From NCBI GenBank assembly GCA_013002165.1, contig JABDKO010000231.1, forward strand, positions 1 through 47,630: a stretch of DNA of 47,630 bases, written 5' to 3'. This DNA is from Rhodothermales bacterium (lineage in GTDB: Bacteria > Bacteroidota > Rhodothermia > Rhodothermales > JABDKH01). Below the pieces are notes generated by a model, which saw only the letters and a program-made list of their open reading frames with translations, had not been told where the DNA came from and did no database searches. Below, piece by piece: positions 3,189 through 30,223 of the stretch; position 1 is the first letter of the stretch; the number at the start of each line of letters is the position of its first letter. Made by a program: the position numbers and the translations under genes.

Positions 3189-6100
3189 TCAGGTTGCGGC
3201 AATCGCCGTTTTGACAATCCTCTCCTGCTCGAGCTGGTGCACTTTTGCACTTCCGTTTGAAGGACTCGCTGCCTCTCGTCTCCCGTGATATACAACGTCG
3301 GCACATTCCTCTCCCCTGACGTCTGCAAGCAAATCGTCGAGGAGCGGACGGATGAAATTCCATGCCCCCATATTTGCCGGTTCCTCCTGAACCCAGGCTA
3401 CCTCGCTGACGCCGGAGTACCTGTCCAGTTCAGCGCGTACCGCGTCTTCCGGAAACGGATAGTACTGTTCGACGCGAGTGATCGCTACCCGCCCCTGTGC
3501 GGACTCATCCTCTGATACCGCCGCGATCAGATCAAAGTATATCTTTCCACTGCAGAACAACAATTTGGTCGCGGTTGAAGCATCAGCTGTTGCCGGAATG
3601 ATCTCTTGAACCGTCCCATGCGTGAAGTCGTCACGCGTCGACACTACACCGGGATGCCGGAGGAGACTTTTGGGTGACATCACTATCAGCGGTGATTTAT
3701 GCGTCCGCTTTACCTGCCGGCGCAATGCGTGAAACAGATTGGCAGGCGTGGTGAAGTTGCAGACGTTCATATTATTTTCTGCGCACAGCTGCAGGAAACG
3801 CTCGAGGCGCGCTGAAGAGTGTTCCGGTCCCTGACCCTCATACCCGTGCGGAAGAAGCAAGACCAGGCTGCTGCTGCGTCCCCACTTCTCCTTGGCGGAA
3901 GACAGAAACTGATCAAAGACAATCTGCGCGCCGTTGGCGAAGTCGCCGAACTGTGCCTCCCAGATTACAAGTGCTGATTTGTCGGCTTCAGAGTACCCGT
4001 ATTCAAACCCGACTGCGGCGTATTCCGACAACAACGAATCGTATGCCATGAAGTATCCCTGCGAATCCGAAAGATTTCGAAGTGGCAGATACTCATCTCC
4101 GTTTGACTGGTCGACAATTGCAGCATGTCTGTGACTGAATGTACCCCGTCGCGAATCTTGCCCTGCGAGCCTCACATTTGTGCCCTCAAGTAAAAGGGTA
4201 CCGAAGGCAAGTGCCTCTCCAAATCCCCAGTCCACCTTGTCCTCATCGAACGCAGCAGCTCTCCGCTGAAACTGACGAAGTAGTTTGGGATGAGTCTCGA
4301 AACCCTCCGGTTGATGCAGAATAGCCTGCTTTACATTTTCGATGGCTTCCATCGGAGCACCGGTGTCAACGACCTCCAATGGCGGTTCTTCTTCGTCTTC
4401 TGCGAGTACGACCTCACGCGCAGCATCGCGTTCGGCAATTTCTTTTGTTGCATCGAATGCCTCCTGCATTCGCGATCGATAGTCCGCCAGCATCTGCTCA
4501 GCCTCTTCCGGCTCCATCTCACCGCGACCGAGTAGTGCTTCGGTGTACAGTTTCCGGACAGACCGTTTCGCTTCGATCTTCTTGTACAACAATGGCTGCG
4601 TGTACGTCGGCTCGTCTCCCTCATTGTGACCATGGACACGGTAGCACAACATGTCCACTACGACATCCTTGTTGTACTTCTGCCGATACTCCAGTGCCAA
4701 CTTGACTACACGCACACATGCTTCCGGGTCATCGCCGTTCACGTGTATAATCGGTGCCTGTATCATGCGAGCGATGTCCGTTGCGTAGGTAGAGCTACGA
4801 GCCATCTGAGGAGTCGTCGTAAATCCAATCTGGTTGTTTATGACGAAGTGAATCGTACCGCCGGTGTGGTAGCCCGGAAGTTGACTCAGGTTAAGCGTCT
4901 CGGCAATAACGCCCTGACCCGCGAACGCAGCGTCTCCGTGAATAAGCACGGGAATGACCGCATCGACATACTCCATATTTGATTCGCCACCTTCTTCGAG
5001 CAGCAACTGTGTCTGCTTGGCCCGGACCATCCCCTCGACTACCGGATCGACAGCTTCGAGGTGACTTGGATTCGACGCAAGGGTCAGATCAACACCGTTT
5101 CCTGCAGGCGACTTATGTTCGCCGCTGAAACCAAGGTGATACTTAACGTCACCAGAACCCTGAGTGGTGTTCGGGTCGATGTTGCCTTCAAACTCGGAGA
5201 ATATTACCTCATATGGCTTTTGTAGAATATTGGCCAGCACATTGAGTCGCCCTCGATGGGCCATCCCGATGACCACCTCACGAACGCCGGTGTCCGACGC
5301 GTCGTTGAGCATGGCGTCGAGCATAGGAATAATAGTCTCTGATCCTTCCAGCGAGAACCGTTTGTGCCCGATATATTTTGTGTGCAAGAACCTCTCGAAT
5401 GCTTCCGCTGCATTTAACTTGGATAGAATTCGTCGCTTGTTTTCTGACGTCAGTCCCTGCTCTTCCGTCACTGGTTCAAGGCGATCCTGTATCCATTTCT
5501 TTTCACCAGGATCAGAGATATGCATATACTCAACGCCGACTTTGTGCGCATAGGTCTTGCGAAGAATATCAAGAATTGTCCGTAATGGAAGTACATCCTG
5601 GCCACCAAGGTCTCCAGTGACAAATCGTCGATCGAGATCCCAGATTGTCAGGCCATAGGTGGCAGGATCCAGTTCCGGGTGATAAACCCAGTCATATCCC
5701 AGCGGGTTGATGTCTGCCTGGAGGTGACCCCGAACCCGATATGCTCGTATCAACTGAAGTACACGCGCTTGCTTGCGCGTCATCTCCATCTCATCGTACA
5801 GGGAGCCTACCCGCGGCGTAGTATCATTTGCCAGATGATACGGTGCATACGGTACACCTAGCTCGGCAAATATTGTGTCGAAGAAAGTGTCTTCTCCCTG
5901 CAGGAGCTTTGCAATGTATGCGAGGAAGCCGCCACTCTCGGCACCCTGTATTACGCGATGATCATACGTCGATGTAATAGTCATCACCTGCGATATTCCT
6001 GTCCTGCTGACAATCTCCGGCGCAAATGCGTGATAGCTTTCCGGGTAACCGATGGAACCAACTCCAACGATTACTCCCTGCCCCTGCATCAGACGGGGTA

Positions 6101-6872
6101 CGCTCAGGGAGGTGCCGATCATTCCCGGGTTGGTTAGTGTCGCCGTGGTGCCGGCAAAGTCAGAAATCTCCAGCTTGCCATCCCGGGCACGTTTGACGAG
6201 GTCGTTGTAGATCCCCAGGAACTGAGGAAAGTTCATTGATCCCGTGTCTTTTACGTTCGGGACCATCAGGGTGCGCCTGCCTCTACGTTCAATATCAATC
6301 GCGAGGCCGAGATTTATTTTTGCCGGAATGACGTGCTGCGGCTGACCATTTTCGACCCTGTAGATCGAGTTCATCGCCGGAAACTTCGACATGGCCTTTA
6401 CGATCGCCCATCCGATCAGGTGGGTGAACGATACCTTCTCGCCGCCGACAGTTTTCTGGTATGCGTTGATGAGTCCACGATTCTCGGCCATCAGCTTGAC
6501 CGGGAAGGTACGTACCGAGGTTGCGGTCGGAACGGAAAGGCTGGCCTCCATATTCTCGGCGATCTTCGCCGATGGTCCTCTAAGCGGAATGATCTCCGCA
6601 TCGTCGGGGACCGGAATAGAACTTACCTCGGGTTCGGCTACCGCGCCATCGCCTCCCTCGGCTCCCGTTCCACGCGCGACAGTGGCAACCTGCTCGTCGC
6701 CGCCCCCTGAAGCCTGAAGGATCGCCTCATTGCGGGCAGCTGTAGCCGCCTGGAAAGCTTCACTTGGAGTATAGTCTGCAAAAAACTCCTGCCAGTCTTC
6801 ACTGACACTACCGGGATCCTCGAGAAACTGTTTGTAAAGCTCTTCAATGTAACCGGTATTGAATCCTAACAT
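3189..6872 (-). CDS. kgd: Fused E2-E1 2-oxoglutarate dehydrogenase (Kgd/OdhA type)
   Basis: This 1227-residue protein carries two parts of the TCA-cycle 2-oxoglutarate dehydrogenase complex. Residues 4-31 are the E1 N-terminal arm (NTGYIEELYKQFLEDPGSV). Residues about 95-330 form an E2 acyltransferase domain with DHRVIQG at 304-310. Residues about 350-1220 form the thiamine-diphosphate E1 with GMAHRGRLN (536-544), SNPSHLEAV (600-608), GDAAFAGQG (646-654) and NNQIGFTT (679-686). No lipoyl domain is present, as in actinobacterial Kgd/OdhA, so a lipoyl-bearing E2 elsewhere must carry the acyl group. The start is ATG at 6872. It appears monocistronic, with no partner genes adjacent. The fusion is best known from Actinobacteria. 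Confidence 0.93.
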   Translation of the reverse strand: MLGFNTGYIEELYKQFLEDPGSVSEDWQEFFADYTPSEAFQAATAARNEAILQASGGGDEQVATVARGTGAEGGDGAVAEPEVSSIPVPDDAEIIPLRGPSAKIAENMEASLSVPTATSVRTFPVKLMAENRGLINAYQKTVGGEKVSFTHLIGWAIVKAMSKFPAMNSIYRVENGQPQHVIPAKINLGLAIDIERRGRRTLMVPNVKDTGSMNFPQFLGIYNDLVKRARDGKLEISDFAGTTATLTNPGMIGTSLSVPRLMQGQGVIVGVGSIGYPESYHAFAPEIVSRTGISQVMTITSTYDHRVIQGAESGGFLAYIAKLLQGEDTFFDTIFAELGVPYAPYHLANDTTPRVGSLYDEMEMTRKQARVLQLIRAYRVRGHLQADINPLGYDWVYHPELDPATYGLTIWDLDRRFVTGDLGGQDVLPLRTILDILRKTYAHKVGVEYMHISDPGEKKWIQDRLEPVTEEQGLTSENKRRILSKLNAAEAFERFLHTKYIGHKRFSLEGSETIIPMLDAMLNDASDTGVREVVIGMAHRGRLNVLANILQKPYEVIFSEFEGNIDPNTTQGSGDVKYHLGFSGEHKSPAGNGVDLTLASNPSHLEAVDPVVEGMVRAKQTQLLLEEGGESNMEYVDAVIPVLIHGDAAFAGQGVIAETLNLSQLPGYHTGGTIHFVINNQIGFTTTPQMARSSTYATDIARMIQAPIIHVNGDDPEACVRVVKLALEYRQKYNKDVVVDMLCYRVHGHNEGDEPTYTQPLLYKKIEAKRSVRKLYTEALLGRGEMEPEEAEQMLADYRSRMQEAFDATKEIAERDAAREVVLAEDEEEPPLEVVDTGAPMEAIENVKQAILHQPEGFETHPKLLRQFQRRAAAFDEDKVDWGFGEALAFGTLLLEGTNVRLAGQDSRRGTFSHRHAAIVDQSNGDEYLPLRNLSDSQGYFMAYDSLLSEYAAVGFEYGYSEADKSALVIWEAQFGDFANGAQIVFDQFLSSAKEKWGRSSSLVLLLPHGYEGQGPEHSSARLERFLQLCAENNMNVCNFTTPANLFHALRRQVKRTHKSPLIVMSPKSLLRHPGVVSTRDDFTHGTVQEIIPATADASTATKLLFCSGKIYFDLIAAVSEDESAQGRVAITRVEQYYPFPEDAVRAELDRYSGVSEVAWVQEEPANMGAWNFIRPLLDDLLADVRGEECADVVYHGRREAASPSNGSAKVHQLEQERIVKTAIAAT

Positions 6873-14406: not shown

Positions 14407-14811
14407 CTACCCGGAGATCACAAGTTGGTCCGGCAGGTCATTGCGCTGGGGATTAGGATTCAGAAGGGGCCCGGTTAGCGGAAGCTCGAAGGCGGTTACG
14501 AAATGGGCCAGCGTTGCGAAAAAGAACTCTTGCTGGAATTCCACAAAGTCCGAGTCAAAGCCGTGCTTGTCATCCTCATGGCCCTCAATCTCCAGAAAAA
14601 AACTCCTGGGCCAATCGGGATATTGCGTCTGAGACTGCTTGATCAGGTCAAAGCAATTTGAAACCGCATCCTCAAATGTGTCTGTATCCCGGACAATATG
14701 CAGTATCGAGACTGTGTTGTCGAAGTTCATTGCAATGCCCGGAGCGTCCGGTTTCGAGTATTGAGGCACGAACTGTGGACCTTCGTCCTTTTCGAAATCA
14801 TCGATCATCAT
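14407..14811 (-). CDS. Hypothetical protein, translationally coupled to uvrA
   Basis: A 134-residue soluble acidic protein that I do not recognise. It opens with two ATG codons in a row (14811, 14808) inside the last 14 bases of uvrA, in another frame, so its translation is probably coupled to UvrA. The sequence is Phe- and Asp-rich with a helical C-terminal half (FVEFQQEFFFATLAHFVTAFELP). There is no signal peptide, membrane segment or metal motif. It looks like a real globular protein rather than a shadow, since no gene lies opposite. Confidence 0.6.
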   Translation of the reverse strand: MMIDDFEKDEGPQFVPQYSKPDAPGIAMNFDNTVSILHIVRDTDTFEDAVSNCFDLIKQSQTQYPDWPRSFFLEIEGHEDDKHGFDSDFVEFQQEFFFATLAHFVTAFELPLTGPLLNPNPQRNDLPDQLVISG

Positions 14812-17773
14812 TCATCTCCATAACTTCCAGGTCTTCGTCTGACATTTCATCATCAACATCTTGATCGTCGTCATCTTCATTGTCATCCTGACTGCCGGAC
14901 ACGCTTCCTATCTCTCCGAGGTCAAATGAGTCCTCGACCCCGATAACACTATTGGCCAGTTCACCTGATAAAAACCGACCCGTATGCGTGTCGATTGCGG
15001 CCATTTCCTCCGGAGTTCCTACGGCGACGATACACCCTCCCGATTCCCCGCCTTCAGGCCCGAGATCAATAATGTGGTCAGCCACTTTCACGACATCCAG
15101 GTTGTGCTCGATCACAAGAACAGTATTCCCCCGCGCAACGAGAGCTTGTAAAACATCGAGGAGGTGTTTCACATCTTCGAAGTGGAGACCCGTCGTTGGT
15201 TCATCAAGAATGTATAACGTATTCCCGGTTCCGGGTCGGGACAGTTCCTTCGACAATTTGACCCTCTGGGCTTCGCCGCCGGACAGTGTCGTCGCCTGCT
15301 GGCCCAATCGAATATACCCCAGTCCCACCATATTCAATGTCCGCAGTTTCCTTGCGATACGCGGTATGTTCGCAAAGAACTCAAGGGCTTCCGAGACTGT
15401 CATCTCCAGGACGTCCGCAATCGTCTTTTCGCGAAAACGCACCTCCAATGTCTCCGCATTGTAGCGCCGGCCGTTGCACGTTTCGCACTCTACGTATACG
15501 TCAGGAAGGAAATTCATTTCGAGTTTGACAATTCCTGCCCCCTTGCACGCTTCACATCTTCCACCTTTGACGTTGAAAGAAAAACGACCGGGTTTGTAGG
15601 CCCGGATCTTCGACTCGGTTAGCTCTGCAAAGATGTCACGAATCAGGCTGAACAGTCCGGTGTACGTGGCAGGATTGGACCTGGGCGTTCTGCCGATCGG
15701 TCGTTGATCAATCTCTATGACTTTGTCTACGTAGTCGAGACCATCAATTTGTTCGTAAGGAAGCGGTTGTGTTCGGGCGTTATGATAGTGCGCCGACAGA
15801 ATCGGATAGAGAGTCTGATTGATGAGACTCGATTTCCCCGAGCCTGAAACCCCTGTGACCGCAATGAACCGACCCAGCGGAATCCTGAGGTCATTGCCTT
15901 TGAGATTGTGACCACGTGCACCTGTCAACACAAGCTCGTGACCATTGCCCGCCCGTCTCCTCGGAGGAACCAGAATATGCCGACTTCCCGTTATGTACTG
16001 GACCGTCATGCTCTCCTTGACCTTATTGATCTCGGCCGGCGTCCCTGCTGCCATTACCACACCACCGTGTTCGCCGGCACCGGGTCCAAGATCGACCACA
16101 TAGTCAGCAGCCTCGATCATCTCCCGATCGTGCTCAACGACGATGACCGAATTGCCCAGGTCCCTGAGTTTCTGGAGCGACGCAATCAATCGTACATTGT
16201 CCCGCGGATGCAGGCCTATACTTGGTTCGTCAAGAACGTACAGGACACCGACGAGCTGCGTCCCGATCTGGGTTGCCAGCCGGATCCGCTGACTTTCGCC
16301 GCCGGAGAGAGATCTTGCACTCCGGTCGAGACTCAGATAATCAATACCGACATCCAGTAGAAAGCCAAGCCTGTCAGTTATCTCTTTACGGATAGGCCTT
16401 GCGATGACTTCAGCGCGTCCATCCAGCTCAAGGTGGGTGATGAACTCATGGAGTGACGCAACATCCATTGTCACGAGGTCCTTTATGTTCTTGTCAGCAA
16501 TGCGGTATGAAAGACTCTCCCTTTTCAGCCTCCCTCCTTCACATTCCGGACAGCGGACGCGGCTCAGGTATGACTCGGCCCAGCGCCTGTTCGAGGCAGA
16601 ATTTGTCTGCTGATACGTGTGCCATACGTGTCCGAAGATTCCGCCGAACCGGTGCTTGTAAACAACCTCACGATCCTTGTATTTGTAGACGATATCGAAC
16701 TGGCGATCTCCAAGGCCATCCAGCACGGCCGAACGCTGCTCTTCGTTCAGATCGCAGAACGGCGTATCGAAGTCAATCTCGTATTCGTCGGCGACTGCTC
16801 TGAGTTGGCTGAACACCCAGATGTCTCGCGGTTTACCTATCGGATGCAGTGCACCGTCATTAATGCTCAGCTCCGGATCCGGTACGACCAGGTCCTCAGC
16901 AACTACTCGTTTTACTCCCAATCCATTGCACGTCGGACAAGCTCCATACGGTGAGTTGAATGAGAAACTATTCGGTGATGGATCGTCATACGACAGCCCG
17001 TCCTTTGCTGAAAACAGGTGCCTGCTGAAGACATGATCTGTGCTGCCATCTTCGTCGTCGAGAACTGAGGTGATCAATACACCATTTCCCATTCCGAGCG
17101 CGGTGTCGACAGACTGTGCAATACGAGGACGTATTCCCTTCTTGATAATCACCCGATCGACCACAACCTCGATGTCATGCGTTTTATATCGATCGACCTT
17201 CAGTCCCTTTTTGAGTTCGATGACCTCGTTGTCTACACGGACGCGCTCGAATCCCTGCCTCGATATCTGTTCAAACAGTTCACGGTAGTGCCCTTTTCGG
17301 CCGCGGACCACCGGGCTGAGGATGAGCATTCGCGTCCCGTTGGGAAAGCCGGTGATGCCGTCGATTATTTCATCGTCGGACTGTCGCCGCATTTCGTCTC
17401 CGGAGATGTACGAATACGCTGTCGACGCACGGGCGTACAGGAGTCTGAGGAAGTCGTAAATTTCGGTAACGGTACCGACAGTCGACCGGGGATTGCTGCT
17501 GACGCTTTTTTGCTCGATCGAAATTACTGGAGACAGGCCGTCGATGAAGTCGACGTCGGGACGCTCCATCATTCCCAGAAACTGACGCGCATACGCGCTC
17601 AGGCTCTCCATGTATCGCCGCTGTCCTTCGGCATAAATCGTGTCGAAGGCCAGACTTGATTTCCCGCTACCGGACAAGCCGGTTACCACCACCAACTGAT
17701 TCCGCGGAATATTAAGATCGATGTTCTTCAGATTGTGCTCGCGTGCACCTCTGATGACGATCTCCTGATCCAT
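14798..17773 (-). CDS. uvrA: Excinuclease ABC subunit UvrA
   Basis: UvrA is the damage-recognition ATPase of nucleotide excision repair and loads UvrB. The protein is 991 residues from the ATG at 17773; a TTG 33 bases upstream is less likely. It has two ABC cassettes: Walker A GLSGSGKSS at 33-41 and a second GVSGSGKSSL after the midpoint, each with LSGGE signatures and YVLDEPS/YILDEPT Walker B motifs. Zinc-binding Cys pairs include CPTCNG, CPECEG, and CEACKG with CETCNG. The last ~45 residues are a very acidic tail rich in Asp and Glu, longer than usual. The next gene starts inside its last codons. Confidence 0.96.
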   Translation of the reverse strand: MDQEIVIRGAREHNLKNIDLNIPRNQLVVVTGLSGSGKSSLAFDTIYAEGQRRYMESLSAYARQFLGMMERPDVDFIDGLSPVISIEQKSVSSNPRSTVGTVTEIYDFLRLLYARASTAYSYISGDEMRRQSDDEIIDGITGFPNGTRMLILSPVVRGRKGHYRELFEQISRQGFERVRVDNEVIELKKGLKVDRYKTHDIEVVVDRVIIKKGIRPRIAQSVDTALGMGNGVLITSVLDDEDGSTDHVFSRHLFSAKDGLSYDDPSPNSFSFNSPYGACPTCNGLGVKRVVAEDLVVPDPELSINDGALHPIGKPRDIWVFSQLRAVADEYEIDFDTPFCDLNEEQRSAVLDGLGDRQFDIVYKYKDREVVYKHRFGGIFGHVWHTYQQTNSASNRRWAESYLSRVRCPECEGGRLKRESLSYRIADKNIKDLVTMDVASLHEFITHLELDGRAEVIARPIRKEITDRLGFLLDVGIDYLSLDRSARSLSGGESQRIRLATQIGTQLVGVLYVLDEPSIGLHPRDNVRLIASLQKLRDLGNSVIVVEHDREMIEAADYVVDLGPGAGEHGGVVMAAGTPAEINKVKESMTVQYITGSRHILVPPRRRAGNGHELVLTGARGHNLKGNDLRIPLGRFIAVTGVSGSGKSSLINQTLYPILSAHYHNARTQPLPYEQIDGLDYVDKVIEIDQRPIGRTPRSNPATYTGLFSLIRDIFAELTESKIRAYKPGRFSFNVKGGRCEACKGAGIVKLEMNFLPDVYVECETCNGRRYNAETLEVRFREKTIADVLEMTVSEALEFFANIPRIARKLRTLNMVGLGYIRLGQQATTLSGGEAQRVKLSKELSRPGTGNTLYILDEPTTGLHFEDVKHLLDVLQALVARGNTVLVIEHNLDVVKVADHIIDLGPEGGESGGCIVAVGTPEEMAAIDTHTGRFLSGELANSVIGVEDSFDLGEIGSVSGSQDDNEDDDDQDVDDEMSDEDLEVMEMNDDR

Positions 17774-17868
17774 CCCGTCCAAGTCCCGTTTGTTCGTTGC
17801 AAACAATTGGATACCGTAATTATCAGGCTTCGTTCCACGATCGACGGATCATTCAGTCGGGTGAGCGC

Positions 17869-21898: not shown

Positions 21899-24841
21899 AT
21901 GACCCTGTTGAATCTGAAATCATATCTCATAGCGCTCACTGTCCTTGTCTGCACGGCATTGACAAGTGTTGGTTATGGTCAGGGATTCAGCGGTTTCAAC
22001 GGTAGGAATCATCCGGAATTGGACTGGCTGGCAGCGGAGACCCAACATTTCGTTGTTGTTTATCCCGACCATCTCGCCGGAATTGAATTCGAGGTCGGTT
22101 CTATTGCGGAAGAGTCATATCGTGTGCTGGAGCAAAATCTTGGAGTCAGTTTTGATCGCAAGATTCGAGTCTATGTGTCGGACGAGGATGAAATCGCCAA
22201 TGGTTTTGCAATGGATGTCGGCAATGGCCACACGAACATCTGGGTTCATGTCAATGACATTGCTGAAACGTGGACCGGCCGAGAAAAATGGCTACGCAAA
22301 GTCATTGCGCATGAACTTGCTCATATTTTCCATTATCGGACTGTTCGTTCCAGGTGGCGACCGTTCGACCGGCTTGCTGGAAACGCGCTGCCGCGGTTCT
22401 GGACAGAGGGACTTGCGCAATATCAAACGGAGCGATGGGATACATTCAGAGGCGAGCGCTGGCTTCGAACGGCAGTTCTTGATGATCGCCTGTCGTATAA
22501 CGATGGTCGTTCTATCTGGAATGGCCACCTACTTTATGCCGTGGGCAACTCCCAGGTCCGGTATTTTGCCGAGCAGTATGGTGACTCGACACTGAGTACG
22601 ATGCTAACTGTTCGAAGGCCGATTTTCTTTGGACTGGCCAAGGTGCACGATTTCGAGCACGCTTTTAAAGTCGCGACTGGAGACAGTTATTCCGAGTTCA
22701 GGGACGACTGGCGGAGGCACATCAATATTCAGTACAATACTCTTGCCTCAACAATGGAGAACGTCGACTCGCTCGGTCAGGAACTCGTACATCTTCCCGG
22801 ACAATACGTGTACGACATACGATACGACAAAGGCTCCGACGAGTTTATTGCTTCTCTTCTGGAATCAATCGAGAGACCGGTCAATAGACTTGTCGCAACT
22901 AACCGACTAAATAGTCATAGTCGCATTCTTGAAGAAGGCTCAATCGGTCCCCAGGTTTCTGTTGCAGGAGATCGTACCGCCTTTAGCATGCGTAATCGTG
23001 GATCGGCAGGTTCAATTGTCAATGATGTTTTCGTAACACGTCATAATTCGGTTGAGCCAGAGAAACTCACGACCGATCGAAGGGCCTCGTTCCCCGATCT
23101 CTCCTCCGACCAGTCGATGGTTGCATTCGTAGCGACAGATGCTGGAACAGCCAACATTGTCGTCAGGAATCTGGAAAGCGAGTCTGAACGTCGGCTGACA
23201 ACTTTCCAAGGCGATCACCAGATTGGTAGACTCAGGTGGAGTCCCGACGACCGATCAATTGCTTTCTCCTCGTTCGATACGGTCGGTGATCGAACAATCG
23301 AAATCGTTGATGTAGAAAACGGTGAGCATCTCCGGCTAACTGACGGCCGCTTTGATGACAGAGGACCTGTCTGGTCTCCGGACGGTCGAAGAGTTGCGTT
23401 TACATCGCTGCGTGACGGCGTCCCGAATGTGTTTATCGCAAACGTCAGAACCGGAACGATCAGAAGAGTCACCAACGTAGTAACCGGCACAGCGGTGCAC
23501 GACTGGATTGTTACGACGAAACCGGATTCAACGACTGTCGAGAGACTTGTCGTAGTGAGTGCCAGATCGAAATCGAGCGACGTGGTCAATCTTGTCGACC
23601 CGTCCCGGACACCACATGTGACGCACCGCGAACAGTCGGCAGAATTGTGGCGATGGACCGAGCGTCGACCTCCAAATGTAGTACCCGAGCAGATACCGAT
23701 CGATCAAGACGTGATAGTCGACAGGTTACGCTATAACTCTCTGTCGAACCTTACGCACACATTCAGTCTTGCATCCCCGTACTACAATTCAGGCACAGAC
23801 TGGGGTTTGTTTGGTATGACGGCATGGATGGAACCACTGGGCAAGCATCTTATTTTCGCTACCGGTGGACTTTCTATTCCATCGTTCAGTGCATCCTCCT
23901 TTCTATCTCTTTCATATGTAAACAGGCAGTTTCGTCCCACCGTACAAACCAGCCTGTACCATCTACCGACTTCGGTTCGACCGTACGGTAATACTGTGAT
24001 TGAAGAAAGGGCTACCGGCACAACATTGTCCGCCTTCCTGCCAATCGATCGTTTTGCGAAACCGTACTCTTCTTCGACGGCGTTTGCCAGATTCAGATTC
24101 ATGTCGGTCGAGCCCGTCAATCCCGAATCTATACCGGTATTTGAAAATCTACTTCCACCTGAGTCCGGATCGCAGGTAGATCTGAGACTGGGAGTAGTCA
24201 CCCGGAAGTTACTCCCGTACAGGCACAACCTTGTCCACCCTCTGGATGGCCATGGTGTTCGTCTGCGCGGAACCATTGGAGTGCGAAATAGCGACATCGA
24301 CAAACCGTTTGTCATCGGAGATATTGCTGCGTACAAGATTCTTCGCGCTCCGGGTATGTCACGATTCATGCTGTACGGTCGCATTCAGGCTCAGGAAGGC
24401 ACTGCTCTGGCACAAAACTATATGGGCCTTTCACGCTACGATGAGCTACGGATATCTTCCCCGAATTTGTTTGAGATTACATTTTCGGATGTTGAACGAG
24501 TTCGCGGCTACCGGTCGTTTGTTGTCGGAAACCGTCTCGCTTTCGCAACTGCCGAATACAGAGTACCGGTCGCGCCCAGCCTTCAAACTAGAATACTTGG
24601 TGTGCTGTCTTTCGGCAAAACAACAGCCTCCCTGTTTGCGGACGGGGCAATTGTTTTCACTGACCAGGACTTTGCCGGCAGAGATGCACGACTTGGTGCC
24701 GGGATCGAACTCAAGAATGCGCTTACGATCGGAAATGCGATCACTTTTATGCATGCTTTAGGGGCTGCATGGCCTCAGGATGATTTCTCTGTGGGAAAGT
24801 ATGAGATCTACTATCGCATTCGGACTTCACTTCCATTCTGA
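21899..24841 (+). CDS. Secreted gluzincin protease with PD40 propeller and Omp85-like barrel
   Basis: A 980-residue secreted protein. Residues 1-28 are a signal peptide ending SVGYGQ. Residues about 40-280 form a zinc protease domain with HELAH at 138-142 and the third ligand E170 in WTEGLAQYQ, a gluzincin (peptidase MA-like) arrangement. Residues about 330-570 hold TolB/PD40 repeats (LRWSPDDRSIAFSS, PVWSPDGRRVAFTS). The last ~350 residues are strand-rich, with the Omp85 lid motif VRGY (868-871) and terminal Phe (RIRTSLPF). The protein is therefore probably anchored in the outer membrane. The substrate is unknown. A related gene begins at 47204. Confidence 0.8.
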   Translation: MTLLNLKSYLIALTVLVCTALTSVGYGQGFSGFNGRNHPELDWLAAETQHFVVVYPDHLAGIEFEVGSIAEESYRVLEQNLGVSFDRKIRVYVSDEDEIANGFAMDVGNGHTNIWVHVNDIAETWTGREKWLRKVIAHELAHIFHYRTVRSRWRPFDRLAGNALPRFWTEGLAQYQTERWDTFRGERWLRTAVLDDRLSYNDGRSIWNGHLLYAVGNSQVRYFAEQYGDSTLSTMLTVRRPIFFGLAKVHDFEHAFKVATGDSYSEFRDDWRRHINIQYNTLASTMENVDSLGQELVHLPGQYVYDIRYDKGSDEFIASLLESIERPVNRLVATNRLNSHSRILEEGSIGPQVSVAGDRTAFSMRNRGSAGSIVNDVFVTRHNSVEPEKLTTDRRASFPDLSSDQSMVAFVATDAGTANIVVRNLESESERRLTTFQGDHQIGRLRWSPDDRSIAFSSFDTVGDRTIEIVDVENGEHLRLTDGRFDDRGPVWSPDGRRVAFTSLRDGVPNVFIANVRTGTIRRVTNVVTGTAVHDWIVTTKPDSTTVERLVVVSARSKSSDVVNLVDPSRTPHVTHREQSAELWRWTERRPPNVVPEQIPIDQDVIVDRLRYNSLSNLTHTFSLASPYYNSGTDWGLFGMTAWMEPLGKHLIFATGGLSIPSFSASSFLSLSYVNRQFRPTVQTSLYHLPTSVRPYGNTVIEERATGTTLSAFLPIDRFAKPYSSSTAFARFRFMSVEPVNPESIPVFENLLPPESGSQVDLRLGVVTRKLLPYRHNLVHPLDGHGVRLRGTIGVRNSDIDKPFVIGDIAAYKILRAPGMSRFMLYGRIQAQEGTALAQNYMGLSRYDELRISSPNLFEITFSDVERVRGYRSFVVGNRLAFATAEYRVPVAPSLQTRILGVLSFGKTTASLFADGAIVFTDQDFAGRDARLGAGIELKNALTIGNAITFMHALGAAWPQDDFSVGKYEIYYRIRTSLPF

Positions 24842-24924: not shown

Positions 24925-26073
24925 ATGCAATCCACTTTCCGGTCTTGTTTCATTATGCTAGCTGGCCTGCTCCTGTTCGGAGCATGCGGCAACAGCGAGC
25001 CCCCGGAGCCCGTGACCGGTGTCCCGCTCGAGAGCTCACTTGAAGATGTCATGCCGAGCGATACAGTTCGTACTGTTGTCGAACCTCCGGACTCCAGTCA
25101 GGCAGCGCTTGTCGATTCGTCTGATCTTGCCAGGCGTCTTTCTTCTATCGAGGATAAACTCGCTGCTATCGAAAAAGCGATTTCCCAGACGGAGCCTCCC
25201 TCAAGCCGGGCATCTACTGACACGATTTCAACTGCTTCGCCGCGAGACGCACTTGGCAGCGCCGCCGACAATCTGGGCAACTTCGGCCTGAAGATCTTCT
25301 TCTCCATAATCCTGCTCTTCTTGATGTACTTCTTCATCAAGATAGTCGTCTGGATACTGGACACCGCTTCAGAACGGAGTGCAAGCCGACGGCTCTTTTT
25401 CAAGAAGCTCATCCCAATCGTACGTATCGTTTTCTGGTCGTTCGTTATCTATCTGATTATTGCCAAGGTCTTTAACGTAGACCGCCAGGGCTTGCTTGCA
25501 GCGGGTGCCGCTCTCGGTGTCGCAGTCGGTTTCGCCGCACAGGATGTCCTCAAGAATATCTTTGGTGGGATACTGATCATCCTTGACCAACCTTTTCAAG
25601 TCGGCGACAAAATTAACGTCGGCGGTACGTATGGCGAGGTTGTCTCAATCGGTCTGCGCTCGACACGCATAGTGACTCCGGATGACAATCTTGTTTCGGT
25701 ACCTAATACCCAGGTTGTCGATGGCCAGGTGGCAAATGCGAATGCTGGAGCACTGCATTGTCAGGTCGTGACAACATTGTATTTGCCGGGTGATACAGAT
25801 GTCGCAAAGGCGCGCAAGATCGCGTACGAGGCTGCTGCCAATTCGAAGTATGTTTATCTGGACAAGCCTATTGTAGTCCTGGTAAAGGACTTTTATGAGT
25901 ACCGGTTTTTGACAAAAATCCTGGTCAAAGCATACGTGCTGGATACTCGATACGAGTTTGCCTTTGCATCTGAGATCACTGAAACTGCCAAGGCAGAATT
26001 CTTGAAAGCGGGTTTGCTTACGACCGACCAGGATGTAGCTGCTTTTGATCATCAAACGGCGTCACGAAACTGA
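24925..26073 (+). CDS. MscS-family mechanosensitive channel with N-terminal extension
   Basis: A 382-residue channel of the MscS family, which opens under membrane tension to release solutes. The N-terminus has a lipoprotein-like signal (LLLFGAC, Cys21), then an acidic Pro/Ser linker and a short coiled coil at about 68-90. Membrane helices lie at about 122-145 and 162-183, and the pore helix TM3 at about 188-220 has the Ala/Gly pattern GAALGVAVGFAAQDVLKNIFGG. The beta domain follows (VGDKINVGGTYGEVVSIGLRSTRI, VPNTQVVDGQV). Its stop overlaps the next gene start as TGATG, so the two are translationally coupled. Confidence 0.9.
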   Translation: MQSTFRSCFIMLAGLLLFGACGNSEPPEPVTGVPLESSLEDVMPSDTVRTVVEPPDSSQAALVDSSDLARRLSSIEDKLAAIEKAISQTEPPSSRASTDTISTASPRDALGSAADNLGNFGLKIFFSIILLFLMYFFIKIVVWILDTASERSASRRLFFKKLIPIVRIVFWSFVIYLIIAKVFNVDRQGLLAAGAALGVAVGFAAQDVLKNIFGGILIILDQPFQVGDKINVGGTYGEVVSIGLRSTRIVTPDDNLVSVPNTQVVDGQVANANAGALHCQVVTTLYLPGDTDVAKARKIAYEAAANSKYVYLDKPIVVLVKDFYEYRFLTKILVKAYVLDTRYEFAFASEITETAKAEFLKAGLLTTDQDVAAFDHQTASRN

Positions 26074-29000
26074 TGGATTCACGAGCAGAGATGGAGAATC
26101 TTGTTGACATACCGACGCCGATTCAAAACGATGAGGCTCCAGCAGATGAACTGCAGATAGTTTATGAGACTGTAAAGTCGTTTACCGACGCTGAGTACGA
26201 ACGTTTTAAAAGCCGCGTACGAGCATCGATATTTGAACCGTTGACCAACCTCAGAGTGGAGTTGGCGGACGCACACAGATCAATTCTCGAAAGTCTTGAG
26301 AGCGCGGTGACGAGAAAATCGTTGTGGCAATTTCAACGAGACTATCGCGAGGATGTAGAGCACGCGGTCATCGAAAGGCTACAGTCATTCCTCGACAAGG
26401 CTCAGCCGGCGCAGGTACTCAACGATCAGTACGATACGTTTCTCGCTGCACTTTCGGATCACACAGTAACATTCCCCGAGATTGTAGAAGTACCATTCGA
26501 CGCAAACATCTTCCAGCCGCATCCCGATGATTCTTCAGGGATAACTGCCAGAAAACTCGCAAAGCGCCTGTCGCTCCGCAGCAAGCACATGTTGTCCACT
26601 GTCCGAAGTGATGATGTTGAGTCTGAACCGGTTCAGAGCGTACCGGTACGCGATCTTGTTACGTATCAGCTTAAACGCAGAGTCCCGGCCGCAGCGGTAG
26701 ACGAATACAAACAAGCGCATGTTGAGCTGGCATCAGTCGTTAGTTCACTTGAACGCGGATTGTCGGTCTGGTTTTCGAGTGTGTTGCTGGTAGACCGGAA
26801 GCTCGGCAGATCCACCGGCGAGGATCAGCTCCAGGATAGTGTGTCCGAAGAGGACTCAAAGCTATTCGATCGCGTAATCGAGGCCGCCCGCAAATTGCAG
26901 GATGCACTTGAGGATGAGGCAGCTACAGAAGTCGTGTCATCGCATGACAGTATGTACTCGTACTCGTGGGAACTCTTTCGTCTGGGACTTGAAGGGCGCG
27001 GCACGTTCCTGTCCGCTCTACCAATACCCGTTAGTCAACTAGGGTCGCCCCGGATTGTGGGCGGTGCTGAGGATGCCGGGGCGGAATGGATTTCGTGGCA
27101 TAAGCAGGTTGATGACCGACTTACGATGATCAACTCGCTGATTGATCTCCGCGACGAAATGCTTTCGATTGAAGGTAGAATGATTGAGCGGATCCGAACC
27201 GCCACCGTGGATTCGTTTGTCAGCGCTTTCGGTAAACTAGCTTCCCAACTAGAAAAGTCAAGATTACTGGTTGCCGATTCCGGTCAGTCAATTGACTCGG
27301 TCGAGGACTTACCTGCATATACGACATTGCTCAAGAGTATTCGAAAGGAAGTTCTGGGCACGACCTCCTGGCTATCATCGTTGCCGGGTTTCCTTGCCAC
27401 CGATGCAGCTCTTGATGATGCCGGGTCGACATCGTGGAAAGAGCTGCAGGCATTCGTCGATAAAATGCCACAGGGATTAGTCATTCACCCGCTTGAAGAG
27501 AATGGAACTGTCGATCCACGGGTTGTATCGCGGCAGATTGAAATGCGCGAAACTATTCGGCAGGCACTTCACACCGACCTGCAGACCAGATTGAAAGAAA
27601 TTGTCCAGCCGGTCAAGCAAGAACTCGTATCTGCATGGACATCTGCCGAGAGAATCGAGAGTATCGTCACATACAACATTGACGCAGCAGTGGACGAAAT
27701 CCAGACGTTCGTTGCTGCGGAAGATGAGGACGACGAACGTACAATCGAAGACGTCCGGAACACTTGCGCAGAGCTTGCGGGGGATGGTCTCCAGCGTGCT
27801 CAGGCAAGCATCGAGGAGGCTGAACAATCAGTCGCCAGGGTAACCGACTCATTTGTCAGGAAGGTCGGTGACGAGTTGCTTAATGACTGGACTGTAATAC
27901 ACAAGATGATCCGACTCAGCGATGCTGCCGCCGAGAGATGGGTAGAAGTCTGGTCGCGATCTGTGCAACGACTCGAATCTGCCCGCTTTGTACTGGTCGA
28001 GCATGCTAAAACTGCGAATCATAGCCTTCGGCAATGGATTCGGTTGGGAGAGCGCCGTGCGCGTGGTTTAATCAAGAAAGGGCAAACGGTTGTAGGAGTC
28101 CTCGATCAGAGTGATGAAAAACGGGCTCAAACGGTATCAGCATTTGCCGACATTGCAGCGTTCAAACATGAGCTTCCGGTAGTCTATCGAAGGCTGTTCG
28201 GTTTTGACTCGCTTGCAACACCCACGCTGCTGGAGGGACGCTCGCGTGACCTCGTTTGGGTGCGAAATTTCGCAAGTCAGTGGAAAAACGACAGAGGCGG
28301 TGGGGTCGCGATAGTAATCGGAGCACTGGGTTCGGGCAGGACAAGCTTTCTCCATGTCCTTGACCAAACTGCGCTGAAAGGCATAAAGACGGTTTCACTC
28401 CAGTTCCATTCACGCATTACTGAGGAAGCGGAACTGGTCAAAGTGCTCGCATCGTCATTGTCCCTGACTGGTGGCTCGTCAACATTACTCGAGCTGGAAG
28501 AAGAAATGGCCGGCACTCCCGATCGCCTGTGCGTCCTCGTCGATGACACAGAACATCTTTTTCTTCAAACCTCATACGGACGAGAGCTTTTCGAACGGTT
28601 CATGTTGTTCGTGTCCCGGAATGACAAAAAGTTTTGCTGGATACTTACAATCGGCAAGCCGGCATGGCGATACCTGTCGAGTACAAACCTCCGCAAAGTG
28701 GGCTTCGCCGCATCCAGAGAGCTTAGTTCGGTCGACCGGACCGTATACGACTCAATTATTTTCAGCCGCCACCGTCGAAGCGGCATGCCGGTAGTATTTG
28801 AAGAAGCGAATACGGCGAAGAACGCATTGGCGGATCAGTTTTCGCGCAAGAGAAGTCCTGAAGAAGTACAAAAAACCCTCAGAGAATCATACTTCGAATC
28901 GCTGCGAAAAGCGAGCGGACAGAATATCATGCTTGCTCTGTTGTATTGGACGCGCTCTGTTGACTTTCTTGAGTCGGGAGACCTCCTGGTCAAACCTGTA

Positions 29001-29306
29001 AAACCGCTGTCGTTCGAATTCCTCAGTCGGTATGATTCAGGGCTTGCGTTCAGTTTGCGGTCTTTAATGGTCCACAAGACGTTGAGCGTTGAGGAACACA
29101 ACACGGTGTTCAATATCTCAAGTGACGAGACTGCGTTTATCCTTGAGCGGCTTGTCAACGACAGGGTTATCTGCATTGCTAATGCTGACCCTGACGAGGA
29201 GATTGAACAACCTGAACGATACTCACCCGACATGAGGTTCAGAGTTCATCCTCTGGCTCTGCACCCGGTAGGTCAGATGCTTTCCGGAAGCAATCTTTTG
29301 CACTAG
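26073..29306 (+). CDS. Large P-loop ATPase with long helical N-terminal region
   Basis: A 1077-residue soluble protein that I do not recognise. Residues 1-700 are highly charged and mostly helical with coiled-coil-like stretches. From about 700 there is an AAA/STAND-like ATPase: Walker A GALGSGRTS (750-758), Walker B LCVLVDD with D824-D825, a sensor-like strand FCWILTIGKPAWRYL, and a C-terminal part that looks like a winged helix (about 980-1077, ending FRVHPLALHPVGQML). There is no signal peptide or membrane segment. Its ATG overlaps the MscS stop by one base, so equal production and joint function are likely. It could sense a signal and control the channel, or be a scaffold. Confidence 0.75.
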   Translation: MDSRAEMENLVDIPTPIQNDEAPADELQIVYETVKSFTDAEYERFKSRVRASIFEPLTNLRVELADAHRSILESLESAVTRKSLWQFQRDYREDVEHAVIERLQSFLDKAQPAQVLNDQYDTFLAALSDHTVTFPEIVEVPFDANIFQPHPDDSSGITARKLAKRLSLRSKHMLSTVRSDDVESEPVQSVPVRDLVTYQLKRRVPAAAVDEYKQAHVELASVVSSLERGLSVWFSSVLLVDRKLGRSTGEDQLQDSVSEEDSKLFDRVIEAARKLQDALEDEAATEVVSSHDSMYSYSWELFRLGLEGRGTFLSALPIPVSQLGSPRIVGGAEDAGAEWISWHKQVDDRLTMINSLIDLRDEMLSIEGRMIERIRTATVDSFVSAFGKLASQLEKSRLLVADSGQSIDSVEDLPAYTTLLKSIRKEVLGTTSWLSSLPGFLATDAALDDAGSTSWKELQAFVDKMPQGLVIHPLEENGTVDPRVVSRQIEMRETIRQALHTDLQTRLKEIVQPVKQELVSAWTSAERIESIVTYNIDAAVDEIQTFVAAEDEDDERTIEDVRNTCAELAGDGLQRAQASIEEAEQSVARVTDSFVRKVGDELLNDWTVIHKMIRLSDAAAERWVEVWSRSVQRLESARFVLVEHAKTANHSLRQWIRLGERRARGLIKKGQTVVGVLDQSDEKRAQTVSAFADIAAFKHELPVVYRRLFGFDSLATPTLLEGRSRDLVWVRNFASQWKNDRGGGVAIVIGALGSGRTSFLHVLDQTALKGIKTVSLQFHSRITEEAELVKVLASSLSLTGGSSTLLELEEEMAGTPDRLCVLVDDTEHLFLQTSYGRELFERFMLFVSRNDKKFCWILTIGKPAWRYLSSTNLRKVGFAASRELSSVDRTVYDSIIFSRHRRSGMPVVFEEANTAKNALADQFSRKRSPEEVQKTLRESYFESLRKASGQNIMLALLYWTRSVDFLESGDLLVKPVKPLSFEFLSRYDSGLAFSLRSLMVHKTLSVEEHNTVFNISSDETAFILERLVNDRVICIANADPDEEIEQPERYSPDMRFRVHPLALHPVGQMLSGSNLLH

Positions 29307-29349: not shown

Positions 29350-29386
29350 AAAAAAGGGCCACCGAAACCGATGACCCTTCTTTTTA
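29349..29386 (-). terminator. Intrinsic terminator of the sigma factor gene (possibly bidirectional)
   Basis: On the minus strand the arms GGGTCATCG and CGGTGGCCC pair fully using two G-U pairs around a GTTT loop, followed by six T. The A-rich upstream arm overlaps the sigma factor stop codon. On the plus strand the same hairpin has two C-A mismatches but is also followed by CTTCTTTTT, so it may stop transcription of the ATPase gene too. Confidence 0.8.
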
Positions 29387-30223
29387 TCCAATGTGCATTT
29401 GGAGTTCTTCGCGACGATGTTTCTGACGGAGTTTTCGTAGCGCCTTTTCTTTAATCTGACGCACTCTCTCTCGCGTCAGCCCGAAACGCTGTCCGATTTC
29501 TTCAAGTGTAAGCGGGTGTTCGCGTCCGATACCGAAATACAGTCTCGTAATTTCAGCTTCGCGAGGATGAAGCAGACTGAGTGCACGCTCGATATCAATC
29601 TTCAGCGACTCATCCATGAGGGTGTCGTCTGGAGAAAGGTCTTCGTCGTTTGGAAGTACGTCGAGCAGCGAGTTATCATCGTCCTCGTTAAACGGCGCAT
29701 CCATTGACAGGTGTCGACCTGTATGCTGCATCGCTTCCCGCACCTTCTCGACATCGACTTCGAGTTCTTTCGCAAGCTCCTCAATATTCGGCTGGCGCTC
29801 GTGTACCTGTGCAAGCTTCGCGCTCGTTTTGCGAATCTTCGAGATTGTCCCAATCCGGTTGAGGGGCAAACGCACTACACGAGACTGCTCGGCAAGAGCC
29901 TGTAGAATTGCCTGGCGAATCCACCAGACAGCATAGGAGATAAATTTAAAACCGCGGGTTTCATCGAAACGCTGCGCAGCCTTGATGAGTCCGTAGTTGC
30001 CTTCGTTGATCAAGTCAGCGAGCGTGAGCCCCTGTCCCTGATACTTCTTGGCGACGGATACAACAAATCGCAAATTGGCGCGGGTTAGTCGATGCAACGC
30101 TTCCTGGTCATTCTGCTTGATTCGCCGAGCAAGGTCTACTTCTTCTGCTGGCGTCAAGAGAGGAATTTGACCAATTTCCTGAAGATACTGGTCCAGCATT
30201 CGTTGCTGTCGAGGGACGTACAT
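29384..30223 (-). CDS. rpoD: Primary sigma factor (RpoD/SigA, Bacteroidota type)
   Basis: A 279-residue sigma-70 factor. It lacks region 1.1, as in Bacteroidota. Region 1.2 is [18 protein letters not shown]. Region 2 has the core-binding and -10-melting stretch [28 protein letters not shown]. Region 3 spans roughly 135-200. Region 4 ends with the helix-turn-helix [28 protein letters not shown]. This set marks the housekeeping sigma factor rather than a specialised one. The start is ATG at 30223. It is monocistronic, with a strong terminator. Confidence 0.95.

Follow-up and report, generated by a model that had tools for sequence, protein, structure and literature searches.

Why the gene of a mechanosensitive channel should overlap that of a large protein is the question raised by one locus in the window, a 47,630-nucleotide stretch of DNA of a Rhodothermales bacterium. 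MscS channels are usually regarded as gates that respond to tension without help from other proteins. The original prediction read this locus as an MscS channel translationally coupled to an unrecognised P-loop ATPase, which could act through the channel in osmotic stress or in defence. The first gene and its junction with the second comprise the following features:

24925..26073, forward strand: mscS, 382 aa; product with a signal peptide, a periplasmic linker, three TM helices and cytoplasmic beta and alpha/beta domains (Pfam, AlphaFold2 (AF2) model, orthologues)
24925..24987, forward strand: signal peptide of MscS with a lipobox-like FGA-C end, Cys21 (sequence)
24988..25239, forward strand: variable periplasmic linker of MscS, with a short predicted helix at residues 65-88; residues 22-63 of low confidence or disordered in the AF2 model
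25483..25587, forward strand: predicted pore helix TM3 of MscS, residues 187-221 (AF2 model; PF21088 sub-threshold)
25543..26016, forward strand: cytoplasmic beta and alpha/beta domains of MscS, residues 207-364, more conserved than usual among paired channels; proposed docking surface
26071..26075, forward strand: stop/start overlap TGATG between mscS and the partner gene, with one shared base

The product of the first gene matched PF00924 (MS_channel_2nd, the beta domain) with an E-value of 2.9e-20 and a score of 72.6 bits against a cut-off of 20.2. Its matches to the TM2/3 and C-terminal profiles fell slightly under their cut-offs, and TM helices were found as well; judged by its sequence, this protein is an MscS channel, as proposed. 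The N-terminal extension described earlier was also recovered, with its signal peptide and Cys21, disordered linker and short helix. The signal peptide is a probable lipoprotein signal. A lipobox was matched in 22 of 43 MscS relatives despite a crude choice of starts, and the Cys21 column reached at least 90% in an alignment of the relatives (A5), a figure that is biased by start choice. The lipobox-like signal is widespread among the relatives, some of which carry a non-lipoprotein signal of the AxA-Q type in its place. A channel of the MscS type lipidated at its N-terminus would be unusual. The window's channel shares its core and its beta and alpha/beta cytoplasmic domains with MscS and MscK, and differs from them in the lipoprotein-like signal, the variable periplasmic linker and the separate cytosolic partner to which it is consistently linked; the long periplasmic and multi-TM domain of MscK is absent from it. 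MscK also ties MscS-type gating to K+ (PMC9653487). The two open reading frames (24925-26073 and 26073-29306) overlap as TGATG, as noted in the original prediction, and overlaps (e.g. of 4 or 8 nt) occur in most relatives in which mscS comes first; this arrangement probably couples the translation of the two genes.

Whether the pair stays together was followed across 114 Rhodothermales genomes, where close mscS orthologues scored at least 323.8 bits and the next paralogues at most 124. The partner was present in 42 genomes, in most of them as a single copy, and close mscS orthologues in 40, all 40 of which had both genes. At every locus that could be tested given the contig ends (35 of 35), the two genes were adjacent and on the same strand. 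In most cases the partner start lies 4-14 nt inside the end of mscS, and otherwise the two are 3-83 nt apart. The adjacent mscS orthologues are about 50-65% identical. Over the full length, identity to the window's proteins is 45-57% for MscS and only 20-29% for the partner, so the adjacency has outlasted deep divergence, and it is far beyond chance. The pair also occurs in Roseithermus sacchariphilus (L141), and is therefore amenable to testing. A gene of the sigma-70 family (window 29384-30223), 89-99% identical across the order, converges on the pair and is its frequent neighbour, and the gene at 21899-24841 (PD40-repeat, peptidase-like) often adjoins it too; with such conserved and recurrent neighbours, the pair lies in a stable part of the core genome region.

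A search of genome contigs with the single partner protein returned no relatives, and those beyond the order were recovered by an alignment-based search of contigs. In the wider phylum, the window's class included, the partner profile matched 71 of 396 genomes; of 40 loci read, 39 had the partner gene first and mscS next to it in the same orientation, and the lone exception (L139) is a paralogue. Gemmatimonadota have the gene order of the window, with mscS first and overlaps of the ATGA/GTGA type, and in Myxococcota and their relatives the partner gene comes first and a divergent MscS follows directly. Homologues of the partner are thus found almost always beside mscS, not far from it, in both gene orders and in four lineages or more, the order being reversed outside Rhodothermales and Gemmatimonadota. 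That the two genes have stayed neighbours although their order was inverted argues strongly for functional coupling, and the linkage strongly supports the idea of a channel with a dedicated partner. When MscS cores were placed in a tree, the paired channels of the window's type clustered with good support. The reversed-order type joined this cluster, unpaired paralogues lay apart from it, and the channels beside long fusion proteins (described below) fell in two places, so the pairing may have had more than one origin.

The second gene has the following features:

26073..29306, forward strand: partner gene, 1077 aa; soluble helical protein with a predicted degenerate AAA+ and winged-helix domain
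26142..28094, forward strand: long-helix region, residues 24-674 (AF2 model), missing from a form of 440-465 aa in related genera
28173..28199, forward strand: signature LPxVYRRLF, residues 701-709, immediately N-terminal of the AAA+ domain; the family's best conserved motif
28320..28346, forward strand: degenerate Walker A, GALGSGRTS, in which Arg756 replaces Lys
28527..28547, forward strand: degenerate Walker B, residues 819-825, lacking the catalytic Glu
28767..28784, forward strand: RHRRSG motif in the predicted AAA+ lid, residues 899-904; R899, H900, S903 and G904 invariant
29016..29288, forward strand: predicted C-terminal winged helix, residues 982-1072 (AF2 model; matches to Orc1/Cdc6 AAA+ plus winged-helix proteins)

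The partner is unrecognised, as had been stated: no accepted Pfam or NCBIfam family spanning it was found and none with an unrelated role, NCBIfam profiles gave no match at all, solved structures gave no meaningful match by sequence, and the Pfam profile AAA_22 aligned to residues 742-861 at E 5.8e-4, under its cut-off. No TM segment was predicted in its 1077 residues, in line with the soluble, largely helical protein that was expected. The AlphaFold2 model, made with 47 sequences (pLDDT 84.6, pTM 0.53), has long helices until residue 674, followed by an AAA+ domain and by the winged helix anticipated in the original prediction. With this model, Foldseek returned Orc1/Cdc6 as the best match (prob 1.0, E 5e-7, TM by target 0.47) and the AAA+ domain of Sir3 at E 2.5e-4. 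The C-terminal part is accordingly modelled as an Orc1/Cdc6-like AAA+ fold with a winged helix. The likeness to Orc1/Cdc6 proteins, including the degenerate Sir3, lies in this predicted domain fold; the partner differs from them in the loss of the P-loop Lys, the long N-terminal helices and the linkage to ion transport. An initiator role of the Orc1/Cdc6 kind was rejected, the context being consistently that of mscS or K+ transport, not of replication or DNA. Within LPxVYRRLF, residues P702, Y705, L708 and F709 are invariant among the aligned homologues, and this signature as the sole query recovered relatives across several phyla. The form of 440-465 aa, at loci L112, L113, L133 and L134, consists of the AAA+ domain and winged helix only and still adjoins mscS; therefore this core is the minimal partner, and the long-helix region cannot be essential everywhere.

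The Walker motifs are at the positions first given, but the P-loop is not intact, both motifs being degenerate. The Walker A Lys is absent in all 32 aligned partner members of Rhodothermales and, in a second alignment, in all 46 members with mscS first, where R, I, V, L, H, A or T replaces it; the sole Walker A Lys in that alignment belongs to a reversed-order protein. Walker B reads DDTE in the window's partner and D/E-[NGSH]-h-E/Q/N in its relatives, and the catalytic Glu is missing family-wide. Because the P-loop is degenerate, the label of ATPase is probably wrong. An active AAA+/STAND ATPase, which would use ATP to remodel, assemble or localise the channel, would fit the predicted AAA+ plus winged-helix fold and the canonical GEKGSGKS/T that is intact in most reversed-order relatives, but the replaced Lys, the absent Glu and the GVGKAA of many Myxococcota homologues, with Ala where Ser/Thr is expected after the Lys, make this reading improbable, and the identity was not accepted for the window's partner. 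On these residues, ATP hydrolysis is unlikely in the window's partner, nor does the family as a whole require it, and the protein is probably an AAA+-derived, non-hydrolysing subunit. Since the Walker A Lys is lost, the domain should act as a nucleotide-binding or purely structural switch rather than as a motor.

The process that the partner may regulate can be seen from distant homologues. Many of these, in Myxococcota and some Bacteroidota-side families, are about 1500 aa long, and where Pfam detects a domain at their N-terminus it is Na_H_Exchanger (PF00999, E 8.7e-19 and 4.2e-26); the CPA2 profile TIGR00932 also matched (E 4.5e-9), and three further long members that were scanned have a hydrophobic N-terminus with no Pfam match. 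TrkH and TrkA flank the pair of fusion and mscS in 22 loci, ordered trkA-trkH-fusion-mscS or fusion-mscS-trkH-trkA, and no trk genes were seen at some fusion loci, such as L202 and loci interrupted by masking or by the end of a contig. The paralogue without an adjacent mscS (L139:6986-12079, G176:C6) encodes 1698 aa with a K-Cl-cotransporter-like N-terminus (TIGR00930, E 9.5e-117) followed by the same P-loop module, and is a bacterial CCC-type transporter with a possible regulatory domain. These fusions and the trkA/trkH context place the partner module in K+/osmotic transport and support the osmotic or ionic role originally suggested. The window's partner shares ancestry with a module that, elsewhere among bacteria, makes up the cytosolic C-terminal portion of CPA2 cation:proton antiporters encoded together with MscS and TrkAH. 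It was not itself assigned as a CPA2 antiporter, as it has no TM segment and the antiporter TM domain is found in relatives only. In Bacteroidota-side K+ operons, a hydrophobic gene of 414-422 aa (L114:11691-12956, L117:2727-3968, L132:2021-3262), whose product had no match in Pfam, overlaps the start of the antiporter fusion.

Gene coupling can also reflect a shared physiological task without contact, and the two proteins might be co-expressed for osmotic/K+ homeostasis while the partner acts in trans on an antiporter or Trk. The fusion of the module to antiporter and cotransporter domains elsewhere and its place beside trkAH are consistent with this, as is the single TrkH encoded in the window's genome away from the mscS-partner locus. 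However, only mscS stays linked in Rhodothermales, Gemmatimonadota and other non-fusion loci, with no TrkH or TrkA near any such locus searched, and even the short AAA+/winged-helix form keeps mscS as its neighbour, so that two proteins acting without contact appear unlikely. The near-constant adjacency to mscS, together with the antiporter-domain relatives in K+ uptake operons, indicates instead that the partner is probably a dedicated channel regulator.

The domains of the channel vary in a manner that is relevant to where such a regulator may sit. Mean pairwise identity among paired mscS-first channels is 0.82 in the beta domain, 0.70 in TM3 and 0.66 in the alpha/beta domain, against 0.36, 0.44 and 0.26, respectively, among unpaired MscS paralogues; in reversed-order paired channels the beta domain stands at 0.68 and the pore helix at 0.64. 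In paired channels, conservation is thus higher in the beta domain than in the pore helix, and in unpaired paralogues the ranking is opposite. This is suggestive of a partner on the cytoplasmic vestibule, in a comparison of groups that differ in overall divergence.

In our assessment, mscS and its partner are likely to make up a dedicated module of channel and regulator that serves K+/osmotic homeostasis, the partner being a cytosolic regulatory subunit of MscS. We infer that the partner binds MscS and sets its opening or adaptation according to ionic or metabolic state. The AAA+/winged-helix core might dock onto the cytoplasmic vestibule, and the long helices might respond to crowding, to ionic strength or to a further partner. 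Binding could raise or lower the tension threshold or speed adaptation, and solute efflux would thereby fit the K+ or energy state of the cell. A broader proposal, which we put forward tentatively and at a little short of an even chance, is that the partner is an obligate, catalytically dead AAA+/Orc-like gating subunit on MscS, and that its module is common to MscS, CPA2 antiporters and the K-Cl-cotransporter-like protein across several phyla, coupling osmotic release directly to K+ transport.

Soluble nucleotide-binding regulators that gate membrane transporters are known from TrkH-TrkA and KtrAB, with their RCK gating ring. The trk genes are operon partners of distant homologues of the window's partner, while the regulator fold is unrelated and the window's locus has no trk genes. 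We know of no AAA+/winged-helix fold that serves as a cytosolic regulator of K+ transport and osmotic release. The KefF and KefG proteins are cytosolic ancillary subunits whose genes overlap those of the K+ efflux system by a few bases and which are required for its full activity (PMC10224563). KefC-KefF and KefB-KefG resemble the present pair in having a cytosolic protein encoded in an operon with overlapping genes and a nucleotide-binding cytosolic regulatory domain (PMC10224563); here, in contrast, the membrane partner is MscS, not an antiporter, and the regulator has an AAA+/winged-helix domain plus long helices, not a quinone oxidoreductase (KefF) or KTN/RCK fold. A subunit of the KefF/KefG type, an oxidoreductase of about 20 kDa, was rejected for a partner of 1077 aa with no such Pfam domain, and only the operon logic is similar. 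The partner would belong with regulators of this cytosolic kind, which act on K+ transport and osmotic release, and what sets it apart is its fold and its pairing with MscS. In the open-access papers searched, no description was found of the MscS partner, of an MscS-antiporter-Trk operon or of bacterial KCC homologues, which is weak evidence of novelty. If the proposed role is true, some bacteria tie their emergency valve, MscS, to K+ homeostasis, a large unannotated protein family gains a testable role, and the partner shows an AAA+ domain put to new use in a regulatory role that is probably non-catalytic.

Membrane effectors are common in anti-phage defence, and a STAND-like sensor paired with a membrane channel effector was the other role considered at the outset, with weak nSTAND and AAA_16 similarity in partner relatives in its favour. 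However, PADLOC gave no match of note to the partner (only mad8, E 0.016, on the P-loop), the context is a housekeeping one and often syntenic, most genomes have one copy, and distant homologues are found with antiporter and Trk functions, all of which leaves a defence pair very improbable. A PADLOC match to mad3 (E 1.8e-95) at 14798-17806 of the window was a false lead, as Pfam gives UvrA domains there and the product is a UvrA-type ABC protein. Elsewhere in the window, the gene at 3189-6872 encodes 1227 aa in which E1 dehydrogenase, acyltransferase and 2-oxoglutarate dehydrogenase C-terminal domains are combined in a single chain.
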